Positions 7,893-34,324 of a DNA stretch of 64,000 bases are shown piece by piece; positions within the stretch are counted from its first letter, which is position 1, and each line of letters opens with the position of its first letter. This DNA is from Micromonospora halotolerans (GTDB taxonomy: Bacteria; Actinomycetota; Actinomycetes; Mycobacteriales; Micromonosporaceae), in assembly GCF_032108445.1 (NCBI RefSeq), contig NZ_CP134876.1, forward strand, positions 5,704,001-5,768,000, in the 5' to 3' direction. The translations under genes and the position numbers were made by a program. The notes below the pieces were generated by a model. The model was given only the letters and a program-made list of their open reading frames with translations. It did no database searches and was not told the DNA's origin.

Positions 7893-9284
7893 ATGGCCGA
7901 TACGGTCGCCCCCGCCGTCGCCGAGCCCGCCCGCCCGGGCAGCACCCGCCGTGAACGCACCGGCTGGTACTTCTACGACTGGGCGAACTCCGCCTTCCAG
8001 ACCACCGTGATCACGGTGTTCCTCGGCCCGTTCCTCACCACCGTGACCGAGCTGGCCGCCGGCTGCGAGCTGGGCGCCGACAGCTGCGACGGCGCCGTGC
8101 ACCCGCTGGGCATCCGGGTCGCGGCGGGGTCCTTCTACCCGTACCTGATCTCGCTGTCGGTGTTCCTCACCGTGTTCGTGCTGCCGGTGGTCGGTGCGAT
8201 CGCCGACCGGTCCGCGCACAAGAAGCGGCTGCTCGCCCTCGCCGCGTTCACCGGCGCCGGCGCGACCATCGCGTTCGCCTTCGTCACCGGCGACCGCTAC
8301 CTACTCGGCGGGGCGCTGTTCCTGGTCGCGAACATCTCCTTCGGCGCCGCCGTGGTGGTCTACAACTCGTTCCTGCCGCAGCTCGGCGGCCCCGACGACC
8401 GCGACGCCATCTCCAGCCGCGGCTGGGCCATCGGCTACCTGGGCGGCGGCCTGCTGCTCGCGCTGAACCTGGTCGCGGTCACCCTGCTCAGCGAGGAGGG
8501 CAACCCGCAGCGCACCCTCGACCTGGCCCGCTGGTCGATCGTGTCCGCCGGCGTCTGGTGGGCGGCGTTCACGCTGCTGCCGCTGCGCTGGCTGCGGGAG
8601 CGTCCCACCGCCGCCACGCTGCACGGCGGCGGCAACGTGCTCACCGACGGGTTCCGGCAGCTCGGCCACACCCTGCGGGAGATCAAGACGTACCCGCTGA
8701 CACTGTTCTTCCTGCTGGCCTTCCTGGTCTTCAACGACGGCATCCAGACCGTCATCACCCTGGCCAGCCAGTACGGCACCGAGGAACTGAAGCTGGAGCA
8801 GAGCACCCTGATCGTGACGATCCTGCTGGTGCAGTTCCTGGCCTTCGGCGGCGCGCTCACGCTCGGCGCGCTGGCCCGGCGGATCGGCGCCTGGAAGACG
8901 GTCCTGCTGTCCCTGGTGCTCTGGACCGGCGTGATCATCGCGGCGTTCCGGCTGCCCGCCGAGGCGCCGGTGCCGTTCATGGTGCTCGGCGCGTGCATCG
9001 GCCTGGTGCTCGGCGGCAGCCAGGCGCTGAGCCGGTCGCTGTTCAGCCAGCTCATCCCCGCCGGCAAGGAGGGCGAGTACTACGGCTTCTACGAGATCAG
9101 CGACAAGGGCACCAGTTGGCTCGGGCCGCTCGCCTTCGGCCTGGTGTTCCAGCTCACCTCCTCCTACCGGGTGGGCCTGGTCTCGCTGCTGATCTTCTTC
9201 GTGGTCGGGTTCGCGCTGCTGGCCGCCGTGCCGATCCGCCGGGCCATCGTCGCCGCCGGCAACACCCCGCCCCGGGTGTTGTGA
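7893..9284 (+). CDS. MFS transporter, UMF1/Atg22-like
   Basis: This 463-residue membrane protein belongs to the UMF1 branch of the major facilitator superfamily. It begins with the characteristic GWYFYDWANSAFQTTVITVF stretch and has around twelve hydrophobic segments. The late segment GSQALSRSLFSQLIPAGKEG is also a family signature. Fungal relatives export amino acids from the vacuole; the bacterial substrate is unknown. It lies 15 nt after the phosphodiesterase gene and is followed by a small hairpin. Confidence 0.9.
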   Translation: MADTVAPAVAEPARPGSTRRERTGWYFYDWANSAFQTTVITVFLGPFLTTVTELAAGCELGADSCDGAVHPLGIRVAAGSFYPYLISLSVFLTVFVLPVVGAIADRSAHKKRLLALAAFTGAGATIAFAFVTGDRYLLGGALFLVANISFGAAVVVYNSFLPQLGGPDDRDAISSRGWAIGYLGGGLLLALNLVAVTLLSEEGNPQRTLDLARWSIVSAGVWWAAFTLLPLRWLRERPTAATLHGGGNVLTDGFRQLGHTLREIKTYPLTLFFLLAFLVFNDGIQTVITLASQYGTEELKLEQSTLIVTILLVQFLAFGGALTLGALARRIGAWKTVLLSLVLWTGVIIAAFRLPAEAPVPFMVLGACIGLVLGGSQALSRSLFSQLIPAGKEGEYYGFYEISDKGTSWLGPLAFGLVFQLTSSYRVGLVSLLIFFVVGFALLAAVPIRRAIVAAGNTPPRVL

Positions 9285-27160: not shown

Positions 27161-27772
27161 ATGGCCGAGACCTTCGCAGATCAGGACCTGACCACCCTGC
27201 GGTCCATCGCGCGCGGGGCCGGAATAACGGACACCGAGCGCATGCCGCACGACGAGCTGGTCGACATGTTGCGCCGCGCAGGGCTGGCCGACCCGGACGC
27301 CCGGCCGGTCGACACGAGCCTGGCCGATCCGGGTGACCCCGGTGTGCCCGGCGCGTACCACGCGCAGGGCGTCGGACGGCGGGAGTCCGCCGGCGGCGCG
27401 GGCGGGCAGACCGCCTCCGCCCGCGGCGCGGGCGAGCAGACCGCCGACTGGCCGGACCAGCCGACCGACGATCGGGCCGGGCTGTCCGGTCTGCCCCGCA
27501 GCAGCCTGGACCTGGGTGATGAGAGCACCGGCGGGCGGGCTGCCGAGGAGGCGATCGGCGCCCGGCCCGGGGAGTCCGGCACCGAGATCGACGACCGCAC
27601 CGAAGACGACTGGCCGGATCAGCCGACCGACGATCCGGCCGGGCTGTCGGGTCTGCCGCGCAGCAGCCTGGACCTGGGTGACGAGAGCACCGGCGGGCGG
27701 GCTGCCGAGGAGGCGATCGGCGCCCGGCCCGGGGAGTCCGGCACCGAGATCGAGGATCGCACCCAGTCCTGA
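27161..27772 (+). CDS. Rho-N-like small protein with duplicated 54-residue unit
   Basis: This 203-residue acidic protein begins with a helical domain of about 35 residues resembling the Rho N-terminal/SAP-like fold (DLTTLRSIARGAGI, PHDELVDMLRRAGL). The rest is low complexity and includes two nearly identical 54-residue units (27446-27607 and 27608-27769) starting DWPDQPTDD and ending GTEIxDRT. It looks disordered and may bind nucleic acid through the N-terminus. It lies 37 nt after the previous gene and ends at a strong terminator. No function is assigned. Confidence 0.65.
   Translation: MAETFADQDLTTLRSIARGAGITDTERMPHDELVDMLRRAGLADPDARPVDTSLADPGDPGVPGAYHAQGVGRRESAGGAGGQTASARGAGEQTADWPDQPTDDRAGLSGLPRSSLDLGDESTGGRAAEEAIGARPGESGTEIDDRTEDDWPDQPTDDPAGLSGLPRSSLDLGDESTGGRAAEEAIGARPGESGTEIEDRTQS
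27446..27769 (+). repeat. In-frame 162-bp tandem duplication
   Basis: Two directly adjacent copies of 162 bp (54 codons) are nearly identical, differing at a handful of bases (for example GATCGGGCC versus GATCCGGCC). The low divergence implies a recent duplication within the coding frame. Confidence 0.9.
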
Positions 27773-27784
27773 GATCGACGGGAA

Positions 27785-27821
27785 CCGCGAGTCACCCTCC
27801 GCTGCGGGGGGTGACTCGCGG
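27785..27821 (+). terminator. Strong hairpin terminator
   Basis: A perfect 13-bp stem (CCGCGAGTCACCC with GGGTGACTCGCGG) and 11-nt loop begins 12 nt after the stop codon, followed by GACATTTTGG. It isolates the next operon from upstream transcription. Confidence 0.85.
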
Positions 27822-27869
27822 GACATTTTGGACCGTTGATCCTGTTTGGTCGCCCGATGCACCTCTGCG

Positions 27870-27882
27870 TCGTCTGAGACGA
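27870..27882. promoter_or_regulatory. Candidate operator upstream of the polysaccharide operon
   Basis: The perfect dyad TCGTCT-G-AGACGA lies about 100 bp before the Pro-rich gene in a relatively AT-rich intergenic stretch (27822-27983). It could be a repressor or activator site. No regulator is linked to it. Confidence 0.4.
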
Positions 27883-27983
27883 ATATGCCGGGTCTTCCAG
27901 ATATGCGAATAGTGAAAGATCGCCCCACGCTCTCACTTTCAAACAAGGACATACACTCACAAGCTCCCCAATAGCCTCAGCCG

Positions 27984-28565
27984 GTGGCTTCTCGCATCTC
28001 GTTCGACCGGCTCCCCGGCGGCCCGCACCCTCCGATGACAACAGTCCCGCCCCGACCCGCCCGCCCGGTCTTCGTCGACGCCACCGGCGCCCGCCGGCAA
28101 CGGATCCGGCGCGCCGGCATCCTCCTCGCGCTGGCCTCGCTGAGTTACCTGCCGATGGCCGGCGCCGCCCTGCTCCCGGGCCCGGCGACGCCGATGCTGC
28201 CCGGCCCCGTCTCGGTCGGCGGCGCCCCGAGCGGCGCAGCCACCCGCCCACCCGCCCTCGCCCCCTCGCCCGGGACCCCGCAGCCGCGACCGGCTCGCCC
28301 GTCGACGAAGGCGGGAGCGCCAGTGGCGCCGGCCCTCGCGCAACGCCCGGCCCGCAACGCGCGACCGGCGCCCCGGCAGGTCGACCCCGCCCCGGTCGGC
28401 GCACCGCCGCAGGACCCGCCTGCCGCCCCGACCACGTCGCCGACCCCGCCGCCGCAGGACCCGACGCCGCCCGTCACCCCGACGCCGTCCGCGACCACCG
28501 AGCCCGGCACCACCCCGCCGACCCTGCCCGCCCTGCCCGAGACCGGTCCGGAGGTCGTCGGATGA
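27984..28565 (+). CDS. Pro-rich membrane-anchored protein with terminal LPETG
   Basis: This 193-residue protein has a basic cytoplasmic N-terminus, one transmembrane segment (about residues 44-64, ILLALASLSYLPMAGAALL) and an extracytoplasmic tail rich in Pro, Ala and Thr. Near the C-terminus it reads LPALPETGPEVVG, including a perfect sortase-type LPETG, but no hydrophobic anchor follows. The stop overlaps the next start (ATGA), so it is translationally coupled to the synthase and probably a partner or wall-spanning spacer for it. GTG 27984 is used; ATG 28035 is possible. No similarity recognised. Confidence 0.65.
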   Translation: MASRISFDRLPGGPHPPMTTVPPRPARPVFVDATGARRQRIRRAGILLALASLSYLPMAGAALLPGPATPMLPGPVSVGGAPSGAATRPPALAPSPGTPQPRPARPSTKAGAPVAPALAQRPARNARPAPRQVDPAPVGAPPQDPPAAPTTSPTPPPQDPTPPVTPTPSATTEPGTTPPTLPALPETGPEVVG

Positions 28566-31500
28566 CGCTCCCGAGCCGTCGCACCGCCGGCCGCTTCGTC
28601 GTCGCGTCGCTGGCCCTGGTGGTCGGGTCCGTGCTGCTGGTCGAGGCGTACGCGAACGCCAGCTTCCGCCCCGACCACGTCCGTGACGCCGAGGACCAGG
28701 TCACCGTGCCCGCGGAGATCCTGCGCGGCGGCCCGGTGCTCGACGCCCGGGGCGCGCAACCGCGCACCTACCGGCTGCCCGCGCGGACCATCGCCCTCAC
28801 CTTCGACGACGGGCCGGACCCGACCTGGACGCCCCGGGTCCTCGACGTGCTGCACCGACACCACGCCCCGGCCACCTTCTTCGTCATCGGGTCGCAGGTG
28901 GCCCGCCACCCGGACCTGGCCCGCCGCGCCGTGGCCGAAGGGCACGAACTGGGCGTGCACACCTTCACCCACCCCGACGTCAGCCTGCTGCCCGCCTGGC
29001 GGCGGCGGATGGAGTACGCGCAGACTCAGATGGCGATCGTGCACGCCGCCGGGGTCCGCACGAGTCTGCTGCGCTTCCCGTACTCATCCGAGCCCAGCGC
29101 CGTCGACGACGCGAACTGGCCGGTCATCCGGCAGGCCGCCGGGCGGGGCTACCTGACCGTGGTCAACGACCTCGACGGCGAGGACTGGACGCGGCCGGGC
29201 GTGGACGCCATCGTGCGGAACCTGACGCCGGCCGGCGACGCGGGTGCCGTGGTGCTGCTGCACGACGCCGGCGGCGACCGGTCGCAGACCCTCGCGGCCC
29301 TGGACCGCTTCATCCCGCTGATGCGCGCCCGTGGCTACACCTTCACCACGGTCAGCGGAGGGATGAACCGGGCGCGACCGGAGGCGGCCGCGTTCGCCGG
29401 CAACGTCGCGGCGTCCACCGGGGACCGCTGGCGGGCCGCCCCGATCTGCTGGGCCGTCCGGTTGGCCGACGGGATCCTGCGCGGCCTCGCCCTGCTCTTC
29501 GTGGTGGTCGGGCTGCTCATGTTGACCCGTACCCTGCTGCTGCTCCTGCTGGCACGTCGGCTCGCCCGGCGCCGACGGGCGCACCGCTGGCCCTGGGGAG
29601 TGACGACCGCGCCGGTCTCGGTGATCGTGCCCGCGTACAACGAGCGGGCCGGCATCGTCGCCACCGTCCGGTCCCTGGTCGCCAACGACCATCCCGGGAT
29701 CGAGGTGATCGTCGTCGACGACGGCTCGACCGACGGCACCGCCGACCTCGTCGACGCGCTCGGCCTGCCCGGCGTCCGGGTCATCCGCAAACCCAACGGT
29801 GGCAAGGCGACCGCCCTCAACACCGGACTCCTGTACGCCTCGCACGACATCATCGTCACCGTCGACGCGGACACCGTCTTCGAGCCGGACGCGATCCGGC
29901 GGCTCGTCGAGCCGTTCACCGACCCGGGGATCGGCGCGGTGGCCGGGAACGTCAAGGTCACCAACCGGCACCGGCTGCTCGGGAAGTGGCAGCACATCGA
30001 GTACGTCATCGGCTTCAGCCTCGACCGCCGGTTCTACGAGAAGCTGGGCTGCATCCCGACCGTGCCCGGCGCGATCGGCGCCTTCCGTCGCCGCGCCCTG
30101 ACCGAGGTCGGCGGGGTGAGCGGCGACACACTGGCCGAGGACACCGACGTCACCATGGCGGTCCTGCGGGCCGGGTGGCGGGTGGTGTACCAGGACCGCG
30201 CCCGGGCCTGGACGGAGGCGCCCGCCTCGGTGGGCGACCTGTGGCGGCAGCGCTACCGCTGGAGCTACGGCACCCTCCAGTCGATGTGGAAGCACCGCGG
30301 CGCATGGCGTGACCGGGGCCCCGGCGCCCGGTTCGGCCGGTTCGGCCTGCCCATGCTGGCCCTGTTCGGCGTGCTGCTTCCCCTGCTCGGGCCGGTGCTC
30401 GACGTGCTCGCCGTCTACGGACTGTTCTTCCTGGACACCAAGGAGACGGCCGTGGCCTGGCTGGTCATGCTGGCCGTGCAGATGCTCACGGCGGCGGTGG
30501 CCTTCAAACTCGACCGGGAACCGCTGCGCCCGCTGCTCACCCTGCCCATCCAGCAGTTCGCCTATCGCCAGCTGATGTACCTGGTGCTGGCCCGGTCGAT
30601 GGTCACCGCGCTGACCGGCGCCCGGCTCGGCTGGCGCCGGGTCAAGCGGGCCGGCGAGGCGGTCGAGAAGACGCCCGTGCCGCAGGGCGCCGGAGCGCGG
30701 CCGGGCCGGGACCGTTGGTTCGACACCCTGCGGGCCCTCGCGCTGGGCCGGGTCATCGCGTACCACCTGTTCGGCGCCGCCTGGCTGAGCTTCGCCTTCC
30801 CCGCCATGGGGGTGATGTTCGCCGTCGGCGGCTCGCTCATGGCCCGCTCACTGGACCTTACGCCGGAGCGGGCGGTCAGCGGCCGGCTGCGTCGCCTGCT
30901 GCCCGGACTGTGGGCGCTGGGCCTGGTGCTGGTGCCGCTGATGCTCTGGCACGGCTGGTCCGACCGGCCCGCCTGGCCGGCGCTGTTGAGCTGGGCGGTG
31001 CCGCTGGTGCAGCCGCCGGGCAACGAGTGGGCGGCGGACGTGACCGGGGTGCTCTGGTACCTGGTGACGTACCTCTGGTTGGTGCTGCTCTCCCCCGCGA
31101 TGCTGGCGCTGCACCGGCGGTGGCCCCTGTGGTCGGTGCTCGTGCCACTGGCCGGCGTGGTGCTGCTCCAGACCGTGGCGCCCGGGTTCGACGGGCCGGT
31201 CGAGTCGGTGCTGACCGACCTGGTCACGTTCGCCGCCTGCTGGATGGTGGGCTTCGCGCACCAGGACCTCCGGTTGCGGCGGCTCCCGCTACCGGCGCTG
31301 CTGGGCCTGGCGGTGCTCTGCCTGGGCGTGGCGGTCGGCTGGCTGGCCACGCATCCCGGCGTGGGCCGCGACCTCAACGACATCCCCGTGGCGCAGGCGT
31401 TCTGGTCGCTCGGGTTCGTGCTGGTGCTGCTGCGCGCCGCGCCGCCGATGGGCTGGCTGTCGCGGCTCCGGTCGCTGGATCGGCTGGTGACCGCGCTGAA

Positions 31501-31789
31501 CAGCCGGGCGCTGACCATCTACCTCTGGCACAACGCCGCCATCGCGCTCTGCTTCGCCGTGGGCGACTCGATGGGTCTCTGGCGGGTCGGCCAGGTGGGT
31601 TACCTCGCGGGCGCCCTCATGCTGCTCACCGGCGTGGTGCTGGCCCTCGGCTGGATCGAGGACCTCAGCGCTCGGCGGCCACCACGACTGCTGCCCTGGC
31701 CCCGCCCCACGAGCGGCCCGCACACCGGGAAACCTCCGGTCGCGCGTCCCACCACGGTGCAGCGCGAAGCGACCCCGATGCGGACGTGA
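28562..31789 (+). CDS. NodB deacetylase / GT2 polysaccharide synthase / acyltransferase-3 fusion
   Basis: This 1075-residue membrane protein has three enzyme domains. Residues 75-290: NodB polysaccharide deacetylase, outside the membrane after an N-terminal helix, with TFDDGP (80-85), metal ligands H133 and H137 (HTFTH), RFPYSSEP and VVLLHDAGG. Residues 350-640: processive GT2 synthase with D435-A-D437, the acidic ED at 526-527 and Q563-RYRW, flanked by helices. Residues 717-1040: acyltransferase-3 with an R-x10-H motif (RALALGRVIAYH). Together they would polymerise, deacetylate and O-acylate an extracellular glycan. NodB plus GT2 recalls Streptomyces MatB (PNAG-like glycan); the acyltransferase is extra. 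Confidence 0.88.
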   Translation: MTLPSRRTAGRFVVASLALVVGSVLLVEAYANASFRPDHVRDAEDQVTVPAEILRGGPVLDARGAQPRTYRLPARTIALTFDDGPDPTWTPRVLDVLHRHHAPATFFVIGSQVARHPDLARRAVAEGHELGVHTFTHPDVSLLPAWRRRMEYAQTQMAIVHAAGVRTSLLRFPYSSEPSAVDDANWPVIRQAAGRGYLTVVNDLDGEDWTRPGVDAIVRNLTPAGDAGAVVLLHDAGGDRSQTLAALDRFIPLMRARGYTFTTVSGGMNRARPEAAAFAGNVAASTGDRWRAAPICWAVRLADGILRGLALLFVVVGLLMLTRTLLLLLLARRLARRRRAHRWPWGVTTAPVSVIVPAYNERAGIVATVRSLVANDHPGIEVIVVDDGSTDGTADLVDALGLPGVRVIRKPNGGKATALNTGLLYASHDIIVTVDADTVFEPDAIRRLVEPFTDPGIGAVAGNVKVTNRHRLLGKWQHIEYVIGFSLDRRFYEKLGCIPTVPGAIGAFRRRALTEVGGVSGDTLAEDTDVTMAVLRAGWRVVYQDRARAWTEAPASVGDLWRQRYRWSYGTLQSMWKHRGAWRDRGPGARFGRFGLPMLALFGVLLPLLGPVLDVLAVYGLFFLDTKETAVAWLVMLAVQMLTAAVAFKLDREPLRPLLTLPIQQFAYRQLMYLVLARSMVTALTGARLGWRRVKRAGEAVEKTPVPQGAGARPGRDRWFDTLRALALGRVIAYHLFGAAWLSFAFPAMGVMFAVGGSLMARSLDLTPERAVSGRLRRLLPGLWALGLVLVPLMLWHGWSDRPAWPALLSWAVPLVQPPGNEWAADVTGVLWYLVTYLWLVLLSPAMLALHRRWPLWSVLVPLAGVVLLQTVAPGFDGPVESVLTDLVTFAACWMVGFAHQDLRLRRLPLPALLGLAVLCLGVAVGWLATHPGVGRDLNDIPVAQAFWSLGFVLVLLRAAPPMGWLSRLRSLDRLVTALNSRALTIYLWHNAAIALCFAVGDSMGLWRVGQVGYLAGALMLLTGVVLALGWIEDLSARRPPRLLPWPRPTSGPHTGKPPVARPTTVQREATPMRT

Positions 31790-31851
31790 ACACGTGCAAC
31801 ACGAACGTTCAAATCATCATAATCAGGTCAATATGACTGATACTTGACTCA

Positions 31852-31878
31852 GGTGGCGGGCCCTCCGACCCGCCCACC
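31852..31878 (+). terminator. Possible terminator of the polysaccharide operon
   Basis: An imperfect stem (GGTGGCGGG with CCCGCCCACC, one bulge) and 8-nt loop lie 63 nt after the synthase stop, following an unusually AT-rich stretch (31800-31850). The assignment is tentative. Confidence 0.45.
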
Positions 31879-32065
31879 TCGGAGACGACGTCACCGCGGG
31901 GCGGCAGCCCACGGCGACGCCAAGGCGGTGATTGGGGTGATCACCGCGGCCGGCACGGGTCCCGCCCTCCTACGGGCCCGTGCCGGCCAACCCCGACCCG
32001 GGCGGCGCACCGGCCGCCCCGAACTCAGGACGCCTGACCCCTCGCAGGTCAGAAGCGGAGCGAAG

Positions 32066-32548
32066 ATGGCGATGCGGCACCCGCCGACCCCGGCGGAGCA
32101 GGAGCTGTGGAACGCGGTGGCGGCCGGGGTGCGGGCCGCCGACGAGTCGGACCCGGCCGGCGTCGACGCCGCGGTGGACCGGCTGGCGCGACTGCCGCAC
32201 CCGTGGGCGTACCACGTGCTCGGCGACACCGCCGCATTGCTCGTCGAGGAACTCGACCCGGACGGGCAGGACGTGTGGCCGCTGCTCGCGGCGCAGCTCG
32301 ACGACGACACTTCCGCCGCCACGGTGACCCGGCGCCGGGCGTCGCCGTACCCCGGTGGCCGGCGACCGGACCGGTACGGGATCGGCGAGCCGGCGGCGCT
32401 GCGGCGGCGACTGCTGCTCATCGCCCGGCTGGCGGACGCCACCGAGGTAGGGGTCGGCGCGTTCCTCGACGTCGCGCTGGCCACCAACGCGGCGCGGGCA
32501 AGGCAAGCGCCCGCCCACGCGCTCCCGCACTGCCGCCTGGGGCAGTGA
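32066..32548 (+). CDS. Hypothetical protein
   Basis: I do not recognise this 160-residue soluble protein. It appears mainly helical (PPTPAEQELWNAVAAGVRAA, AVDRLARLPHPWAYHVLGDT, LRRRLLLIARLADATEVGVG) and lacks membrane segments. ATG 32066 is chosen because a GGAG ribosome site lies 5 nt upstream; the frame extends to 31844, but that part is Arg/Pro-rich and looks non-coding. Both flanking intergenic regions are AT-richer than the chromosome average, suggesting acquired DNA. Confidence 0.55.
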   Translation: MAMRHPPTPAEQELWNAVAAGVRAADESDPAGVDAAVDRLARLPHPWAYHVLGDTAALLVEELDPDGQDVWPLLAAQLDDDTSAATVTRRRASPYPGGRRPDRYGIGEPAALRRRLLLIARLADATEVGVGAFLDVALATNAARARQAPAHALPHCRLGQ

Positions 32549-32620
32549 GCAACACCCGATACACCAAAAGCGTCATTATGGTGCGGTGGCGTTTTGTCCC
32601 TTTTGTGGCGAGGAATTACC

Positions 32621-32642
32621 GGATTATTGTTAACGGCAATCC
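32621..32642. promoter_or_regulatory. GTTAAC-centred dyad before the 32711 gene
   Basis: GGATT-N3-GTTAAC-N3-AATCC is a 22-bp dyad with 16 symmetric positions, 69 bp upstream of the next start in an AT-rich stretch. It looks like an operator of unknown ownership. Confidence 0.4.
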
Positions 32643-32710
32643 GATAATGGCTGGGTTTGAGCTGACTCAACAGCGGCGCCGCCGCACGAGCGTGGCCGTA
32701 CAGTGCGGGG

Positions 32711-33229
32711 ATGGACATCGCCTACGACTGGGGCATCGACCAGCCTCCCGACCCGGCCGCCGACCGCGCCGACGACGTGGATGGGCTGACCTCGGAGCAA
32801 CTGCCGGAGGTACGGGAGCTGACCGCGCAGGGCTGGCATCTGGCGTCGGACGCGCCCATGCTGGTCTTCCTGCCGGCGGTATGGCCCCGGAAACTGAGGA
32901 CGTGGGTGCCGGACCGGGCCACCCGCTACGAGTGGTGGTACGAGCAAGAGCCGAAAACCCGCCGGGTGATCCGCGAGCAGACGGTCCACTCCAGCTGGGA
33001 GTCACGCAACGAGGTCGAGAACGACAACGACGCCCTGCTCGCCGAGACGGGCGTCACCGGCCGGCCGCGGGGCCGGCTGTGGCTGCTGAAGCCACCGCCC
33101 GGGTTCGACTCCGTCGACGACTTCCTCGCCGAGCTCGGCCGCCGCGCTGATGCCGCCGGCATCGACGGCGCGTGCAGCCCGCAGTACGTGCGGTTCACCA
33201 CCGAGCTGCTGGCCGAGCTGACCAAATAG
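32711..33229 (+). CDS. Hypothetical protein
   Basis: This 172-residue soluble protein is not recognised. It has an acidic start (MDIAYDWGID), an unusually tryptophan-rich middle (AVWPRKLRTWVPD, RYEWWYEQEP) and a C-terminal helix-rich part ending FTTELLAELTK. No catalytic motif, signal or membrane helix is visible. Codon use is less extreme than in neighbouring genes and the upstream DNA is AT-rich, consistent with horizontal gain. A hairpin follows the stop. Confidence 0.6.
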   Translation: MDIAYDWGIDQPPDPAADRADDVDGLTSEQLPEVRELTAQGWHLASDAPMLVFLPAVWPRKLRTWVPDRATRYEWWYEQEPKTRRVIREQTVHSSWESRNEVENDNDALLAETGVTGRPRGRLWLLKPPPGFDSVDDFLAELGRRADAAGIDGACSPQYVRFTTELLAELTK

Positions 33230-33600: not shown

Positions 33601-34080
33601 TCAGCGGCGGCGCCAGGGCCACCACGAGCGGCGCTTCGGCGGGGCCGGGACGGCCACCGGGTCCGTGGCCACCGGCATGCGCTCGGCCGCGGCCCTCTCC
33701 CGGGCGGCCCGCCAGTCGCGGACCACGTCGTCGGCGTTGACCGGACGCACCACCACGCGCGGCCCGGTGGGCGCGCGCAACCAGGCCACCACCTCGGCGT
33801 TGAGGGCGGCCACGTACGCCCGCACCGACTCCTCGGTGGGCAGGTCGCGGACCTCGCCGGGGAGTTCCTCGATGCGCCGGCGCAGTTGCAGCGGGGTGGG
33901 CAGGAGCAGGTCGCCGGGGAGCTGTTCGCGCTCCAGGAAGCTCCGGATCCACCAGCCCTCGTCGTAGGGCATGTCGCGGCCGGGGATCGGCTTGCCGGCC
34001 CCGGGCAGGTTGTCGAACTCGCCGCGCTCCTGGGCCGAGCGGATCTGCGCCTCGACCGCGGCCTCCCAGCCTGTCGTCAC
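33601..34080 (-). CDS. DUF1992 (DnaJ-homologue conserved region) protein
   Basis: This 159-residue protein has the DUF1992 core: WEAAVEAQIRSAQERGEFDN, LPGAGKPIPG and the DMPYDEGWWIRSFLEREQLP stretch. The domain occurs in DNAJC28-like proteins but is uncharacterised; no J domain is present here. GTG 34080 is chosen because GGGAGGTGA lies 5 nt upstream; the GTG at 34101 would include that ribosome site in the coding region. The C-terminus is basic and tryptophan-rich (RRSWWPWRRR). Monocistronic. Confidence 0.82.
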   Translation of the reverse strand: MTTGWEAAVEAQIRSAQERGEFDNLPGAGKPIPGRDMPYDEGWWIRSFLEREQLPGDLLLPTPLQLRRRIEELPGEVRDLPTEESVRAYVAALNAEVVAWLRAPTGPRVVVRPVNADDVVRDWRAARERAAAERMPVATDPVAVPAPPKRRSWWPWRRR

Positions 34081-34324
34081 CGCCGTCACCTCCCGTTCCA
34101 CCGTATCCGCCGGTCACCGACCCGGTTCAGCGCCCGCCGCGACCGGGCTGTTCCCCGCCCGGGCGACCCCCGGCGGGGTACGGGTGAGACACCGGCCACA
34201 GCCACGGCGCGGAACCGGGCAGAGACTCCGAGGTGCTCCGGCACCGCCGGCTGAGCGCGGTACGGCGTACATTCCGGGGTGGGTCGGCGGGCGACCCGTA
34301 CCCCGGCAGGGAGGGACCACCGGC

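Follow-up and report, generated by a model that had tools for sequence, protein, structure and literature searches.

Poly-N-acetylglucosamine (PNAG) governs the pellet growth of actinobacteria in fermenters, and the Streptomyces MatAB synthase that makes it is required for hyphae to aggregate. In Streptomyces, PNAG production by the mat locus was shown by antibody and dispersin B and needs MatA, and MatB has been described as the equivalent of IcaA plus IcaB, with SCO2961 as the equivalent of IcaC (PMC4391728, PMC5972031; these and the papers below are cited from excerpts). IcaC was proposed to O-succinylate PNAG, and its function was called an outstanding problem (PMC9558356); a close association of IcaC with IcaAD, leading to direct acylation of the emerging chain, has been suggested (PMC9833829). 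A survey of PNAG operons reported, for Gram-negatives, glycosyltransferases fused to PgaB-like deacetylases (PMC7112194). Here, we describe a gene in a 64,000-nucleotide stretch (the window) of Micromonospora halotolerans contig NZ_CP134876.1 (5,704,001–5,768,000) that encodes a NodB deacetylase, a processive family 2 glycosyltransferase (GT2), and a family 3 acyltransferase (AT3) in one polypeptide, preceded by a gene for a MatA-like protein. No description of a NodB-GT2-AT3 fusion was found in the excerpts consulted from the open-licence PMC literature, subscription papers and preprints lying outside the search. On balance, the protein is rather probably a one-polypeptide IcaB-IcaA-IcaC equivalent that, with its MatA partner, makes, extrudes, partly deacetylates, and O-acylates a PNAG-type polymer.

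Three enzyme domains in one open frame

The fusion protein (28562–31789; 1075 amino acids, aa) is encoded by a single open frame on the forward strand, as are all its parts. It includes an extracellular NodB/CE4 deacetylase domain (residues 49–282; 28706–29407), a processive GT2 synthase with channel helices (residues 307–688; 29480–30625), a disordered linker (residues 688–711; 30623–30694), and an AT3 acyltransferase domain (residues 718–1036; 30713–31669). Pfam matches above cut-off were obtained for Polysacc_deac_1 (residues 72–181), Glycos_transf_2 (353–515), and Acyl_transf_3 (718–1027). The NodB motifs TFDDGPD and H133xxxH137 are intact, with the DD/H/H metal triad and the catalytic motifs in the usual order. 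The GT2 domain retains DAD (435–437), ED (526–527), and QRYRW (563–567), that is to say, the D, DxD, ED, and QxxRW residues and the channel helices of the HAS/BcsA-type processive synthases. The AT3 domain has the 10-transmembrane (TM) fold of the AT3/TmAT family, as defined in PMC9833829 and PMC12423673, with R724-x10-H735 intact in TM helix (TMH) 1 and RxxR (R775, R778) in TMH3; G897 and Y987 are also kept. The phenylalanine of the TMH2 FxxxxG motif, a lesser motif of the superfamily, is absent, with Met at position 752, as placed by eye, and F753 and G757 adjoining. The sequence-only reading had claimed one polypeptide joining an external NodB, a processive GT2, and an AT3 domain with intact motifs, and Pfam matches and motif inspection agree on all three. 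Architecture, motifs, conservation, and gene linkage were observed directly, and the folds were taken from a model.

The predicted structure of the fusion had a mean predicted local distance difference test (pLDDT) score of 82.5 and a predicted template modelling (pTM) score of 0.67. The linker (pLDDT <50) and both ends are disordered in the model; therefore, the AT3 domain appears to be a tethered module.

A frameshift or assembly error between residues 640 and 720 could have made one gene of two, since Streptomyces relatives have two overlapping genes and a single-base error could join such genes. No frameshift is indicated. GC content at third codon positions (GC3) stays at 0.92–1.00 per 25-codon block across residues 600–800, and the ratio of nonsynonymous to synonymous substitutions (dN/dS) against the 94% identical orthologue L011 is 0.19 for NodB, 0.13 for GT2, 0.40 for the linker (690–716), 0.21 for AT3, and 0.71 for the C-tail. 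The genome is a single contig of 6.96 Mb, and the M. chersina homologue is 91% identical. The same single frame occurs in 23 of 151 congeners and in 13 of 70 loci. With GC3 and dN/dS continuous over the GT2-AT3 joint, these recurrences rule out an artefact of assembly, and the probability that separate genes were joined by error is negligible.

A conserved core in the MatA-like partner

The MatA-like gene (27984–28565, forward strand; 193 aa; no Pfam family) has a GTG start at 27984 that is common to the window gene and L011, and its TGA stop overlaps the synthase ATG as ATGA (28562–28565). Its product has a short cytosolic N-terminus, one TM helix, and a Pro/Thr/Ala-rich outer tail; thus a coupled membrane protein lies upstream of the synthase, as the sequence-only reading had it. 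Homologues are annotated in the sources at most as hypothetical proteins. Judged from its sequence, this Pro-rich partner is a MatA homologue. The published analysis, as excerpted, assigned MatA no known domain (PMC5972031). Streptomyces MatA (SCO2963), with one TM helix, was found in the S. coelicolor glycoproteome (PMC6593405), as would be expected if the Pro/Thr tail were outside the cell and glycosylated.

The conserved part of the partner is a cytosolic FVDx[ST]GxR motif plus the TM helix, not the Pro-rich part that had earlier been taken as its key feature. In the window, this core (RPVFVDATGAR and the TM helix) spans 28062–28208 on the forward strand and matches profile A2 with an E value of 3.8e-18 in its own genome. 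The full motif is [VI]F[VL]Dx[ST]GxR followed by one TM helix, and F, D, G, and R are invariant in 21 aligned cores. The Pro/Thr-rich tail that follows is very variable in length. In 18 of 52 partners only 42–60 aa separate the core start from the stop; 17 of these belong to Actinoplanes, Paractinoplanes, or Dactylosporangium and one to Amycolatopsis, and the Pro-rich stretch is almost absent from the Actinoplanes relatives. The variable length and the 18 short partners rule out the Pro-rich tail as the working part. We define the MatA core as a conserved, unnamed partner element, which is new here.

A MatA core was found upstream of the synthase in 52 of the 56 loci with at least 900 nt of upstream sequence (53 core matches altogether; core missing in L035, L055, L065, and L076), a count that is partly circular because most of the 21 sequences in profile A2 came from those same loci. 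Genome samples are a more independent test of this linkage. The own genome holds two core matches (3.8e-18 and 1.5e-12), each preceding a synthase, and its next match is at 0.044. Of 148 genomes of the class, 25 carry the core (E 1e-4) and 20 carry the synthase (E 1e-80), and all 20 fall within the 25 (Fisher p 2e-20). The five core-positive genomes without a synthase comprise four weak matches (G163, G211, G214, and G258; 8.4e-6 to 4.1e-5) and one strong match (G292), which an AT3 fragment adjoins.

Searches of the MatA cores against Pfam gave scattered weak matches only (best E 0.01), the sole NCBIfam match of the partner was a weak one to MmpB (E 0.068), and no sequence link was found between MatA and PgaD or IcaD. 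Other MatA-like genes occur in different settings. In L168, L169, and L170, they stand without a NodB-GT2 gene, beside an AT3 fragment or nothing, and the first two of these loci have a short, overlapping AT3-like frame, as though they had decayed. In a family of the same order (f50), three tandem MatA-core genes have no adjacent synthase (L180:9723–13412, L183:9536–13328); one frame there carries a long R/G/D/Y-rich stretch before the core, and genes nearby encode, among others, an ABC ATPase and an enoyl-CoA hydratase.

Distribution, history, and surroundings of the fusion

A protein search scored 7995 candidates and returned 6782 matches, and domain content was judged in the best 120. All three domains are present in 107 of these 120 (blastp), counting P0036, whose AT3 is incomplete, and P0014, which is truncated at the NodB end; named three-domain proteins come from Micromonospora, Plantactinospora, Pseudonocardia, Actinomycetospora, Saccharomonospora, and Streptomyces. 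Among actinobacteria this architecture is common, and these many relatives rule out a new, unique system. Five fused proteins of 1200–1430 aa (P0044, P0045, P0066, P0077, and P0075) extend beyond AT3 in a long C-terminal tail of low complexity, and three of them were assigned to Pseudonocardia or Actinomycetospora, by source or by position nearby in the tree.

The 23 Micromonospora genomes with the fusion include the own genome and G020, for which two pieces within a single 1202-aa frame were taken together; the frames are open, without internal stops. In the 148-genome sample, the fusion appeared as one match only in the own genome, and four genomes (G209, G240, G207, and G250) have separate neighbouring frames; the fusion is therefore a minority state overall. 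The 70 loci comprise 13 with the fusion, 12 in which a separate AT3 gene comes next on the same strand, one with AT3 on the opposite strand (L035), 37 with NodB-GT2 only (1.5–7.1 kb of downstream sequence covered), one with GT2 only (L067), and six with AT3 only. All 12 loci with AT3 as the next gene are from Streptomyces. A 4-base overlap of the two genes (9145–9148) is possible in L068, where gene starts were placed crudely. In L175 and at G038:C1:6542664–6544744, the NodB-GT2 reading frame is in two pieces, and SmpB lies upstream in L041.

Further Micromonospora NodB-GT2 groups without AT3 are about 63% and 56% identical, and a MatA-like gene of its own stands in front of each one inspected (L085–L089, L008, L094, and L095). 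The second synthase of the own genome (L008, G000:C1:2150389–2152329) is NodB-GT2 only, of the 56% kind; it is preceded by a MatA-like gene (FVDRTGRR), and the 18 kb of sequence covered there contain no AT3. The fused window gene is an accessory paralogue, and the genome also encodes this two-domain form.

The NodB-GT2 tree (76 rows) divides the fused proteins into three groups, from Micromonosporaceae, Pseudonocardiales, and Streptomyces, and places the two-gene loci of Streptomyces close to the last of these; the same three fused groups appear on the tree of AT3 (52 rows). An approximately unbiased (AU) test on 72 rows of the NodB-GT2 tree, with the long-branch L035, L055, L065, and L096 left out and the 76-row tree seen beforehand, rejected the 30 fused rows as one clade (p-AU 0.00023), which rules out a single unchanged fusion event; the test did not reject a single clade of the Streptomyces rows (p 0.058). 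Fused proteins that do not form one clade may reflect repeated fusion, or an ancestral fusion with fission and loss.

The description of this region as accessory-looking is fair, given the fusion in 23 of 151 Micromonospora genomes. Between a 203-aa open reading frame (ORF) and the MatA-like gene stands a very stable GC-rich hairpin (27785–27821, forward strand), a possible terminator, with −49 kcal/mol for the folded stretch and z −7.1. It had been called a strong terminator; the stability holds, but a proper T run after the hairpin is missing, and the hairpin is not among the terminators listed by the scan. The scan of the locus gave no promoter match, and an Rfam search of 27600–32700 gave no match at E 0.5. 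The 203-aa ORF (27161–27772) contains two 157-nt direct repeats (27445–27601 and 27607–27763) that are 96% alike, and it had no Pfam match. Downstream are a DUF5956 protein (32711–33229, forward strand) and a DnaJC28-domain protein (33601–34101, reverse strand).

Proposed mechanism and relation to known systems

In the mechanism that we propose, the GT2 domain would polymerise N-acetylglucosamine (GlcNAc) from UDP-GlcNAc and thread the chain outward via its own modelled channel helices. The NodB domain, outside at the channel exit, would remove some of the N-acetyl groups. The AT3 domain on its flexible linker would move an acyl group from cytosolic acyl-CoA across the membrane and attach it to hydroxyl groups of the chain as it emerges, in line with the proposal for IcaC. 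The MatA-like protein would be an essential synthase co-subunit in the membrane, similar to IcaD or PgaD, whose cytosolic FVDx[ST]GxR motif and TM helix may keep the synthase in place or activate it, with the Pro-rich tail extending into the wall. The three domains would then act on one glycan, most likely a partly deacetylated, O-acylated PNAG; we infer the glycan linkage type, the acyl group, the acceptor, and the role of MatA.

Several observations, on the product, the partner, and the acyltransferase, weigh against this mechanism. The GT2 domain scored 192.8 bits against PgaC_IcaA (TIGR03937), far under the cut-off of 422.3, and it also matched NodC. The CE4 domain is nearest to NodB/PdaB/PgdA-type enzymes, which act on 1,4-linked glycans, and the structure comparison gave PgdA/chitin deacetylase structures as matches. 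These matches would fit a beta-1,4-linked chitin/chitosan-like polymer made by otherwise the same machine, and the same conflict was noted for MatB (PMC5972031). Such a product is unlikely: the PgaC_IcaA score is well above the 87.1 bits for NodC, and in that study the product of the homologous MatB was PNAG as judged by antibody, dispersin B, and periodate, although its CE4 domain is of the same type. No fused member with a known product or activity was found. The NodB-GT2 synthases in 37 of 70 loci have no AT3 within at least 1.5 kb downstream, so AT3 is dispensable to the core, and MatA cores without an adjoining synthase occur in one family (f50).

The AT3 domain alone had no NCBIfam match and no Foldseek match at E 0.001, and a sequence search of the PDB with the AT3 profile gave no match at E 1. 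In nine of 106 fused relatives (P0036 left out), the AT3 Arg (P0078, P0082, P0089, P0095, P0106, and P0116) or His (P0073, P0101, and P0117) was lost and the domain kept, by at least six changes on the tree; R775, R778, G757, and E1033 are nearly complete throughout the 106 despite these losses. Judging from these residues, AT3 in the nine relatives is probably inactive. Because the domain is kept where catalytic residues are lost, AT3 may also act as a scaffold, and the losses slightly lowered our confidence in acylation, to a moderate level. AT3 might even be mainly a scaffold, or act on an acceptor other than the O-positions of the polymer, such as a wall glycan or, by re-N-acylation, glucosamine. 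This alternative draws on the repeated losses at the equivalents of R724 or H735, on the nearest solved fold, HGSNAT, which is an N-acetyltransferase of glucosamine (PMC12423673), and on solo AT3 relatives, which occur at about 45% identity in many Micromonospora among the matches listed and stand away from synthases in the four loci inspected. We consider it improbable, since the window protein keeps all six residues (R724, H735, R775, R778, G897, and Y987), the AT3 dN/dS in the window/L011 pair is 0.21, and no loss occurs in P0001–P0035, where the Micromonospora proteins lie together with Plantactinospora. An AT3 domain that forms or helps the export path, an earlier view of IcaC (PMC9558356), would also fit the fusion to a synthase. 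That role is very improbable, as HAS/BcsA-type channel helices are already in the GT2 part, synthases without a linked AT3 are common, and AT3 keeps its acyltransferase residues in 97 of 106.

Tentatively, the synthase-borne AT3 could acylate the chain as it leaves the channel and serve in some lineages as a non-catalytic structural subunit, with the MatA core as an unnamed single-TM co-subunit family of actinobacterial poly-GlcNAc synthases, the counterpart of IcaD/PgaD, and the Pro-rich tail as an optional glycosylated extension. If so, the fusions would be a natural proof of proximity for the IcaC question, and no SGNH or other carrier would be needed. With AT3 covalently on the synthase and natural AT3-dead variants, point mutations in a single gene can test that question. 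The MatA core offers a short motif to find and name synthase-partner loci in actinobacteria, and the fusion in Micromonospora, a harmless genus of soil bacteria, is a natural clue to the decoration of surface sugars during synthesis.

The nearest known system is, as previously suggested, the MatB-like PNAG synthase, with a homologous MatA core and NodB-GT2. AT3 is not an added enzyme, as had been assumed; icaADBC already has it as its third enzyme, and in Streptomyces its gene follows matB (PMC4391728, PMC5972031), and the difference from the known pathway is therefore the fusion. Like the Streptomyces locus (SCO2963-2962-2961), the window locus has the order single-TM MatA, NodB-GT2, and AT3, with NodB/CE4 and GT2 in one polypeptide; matA is translationally coupled to matB there (PMC4391728), and an ATGA overlap is found here. 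AT3 is a separate gene in Streptomyces and the third part of one protein in the window, where no separate downstream AT3 gene was found; the excerpted work does not present that gene as a required part of MatAB. Unlike Streptomyces mat, the window copy is accessory, beside a two-domain paralogue.

Staphylococcal icaADBC likewise combines three enzyme activities (IcaA GT2, IcaB deacetylase, and IcaC AT3) with a small membrane partner (IcaD), but in separate genes; the CE4 domain here is nearest NodB/PgdA, the GT2 score is below the IcaA/PgaC equivalog level, and no IcaD or IcaC model in NCBIfam matched at the locus (presence of the IcaD model in the library not checked). The pgaABCD system shares a PgaC-like GT2 that needs a small membrane protein (PMC8461298); outer-membrane parts are absent here, and MatA has one TM helix. 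With OafB, OatA, HGSNAT, and GWT1, the AT3 domain shares the 10-TM fold, DxxR, R-x10-H, RxxR, the TMH6 Gly, and the TMH9 Tyr; it differs in being fused to a synthase rather than to SGNH, racemase, or NRF, and in having Met 752 for the TMH2 Phe. The window fusion is thus a variant of the MatAB/Ica type whose novelty lies in the fusion itself and in the MatA core defined here.

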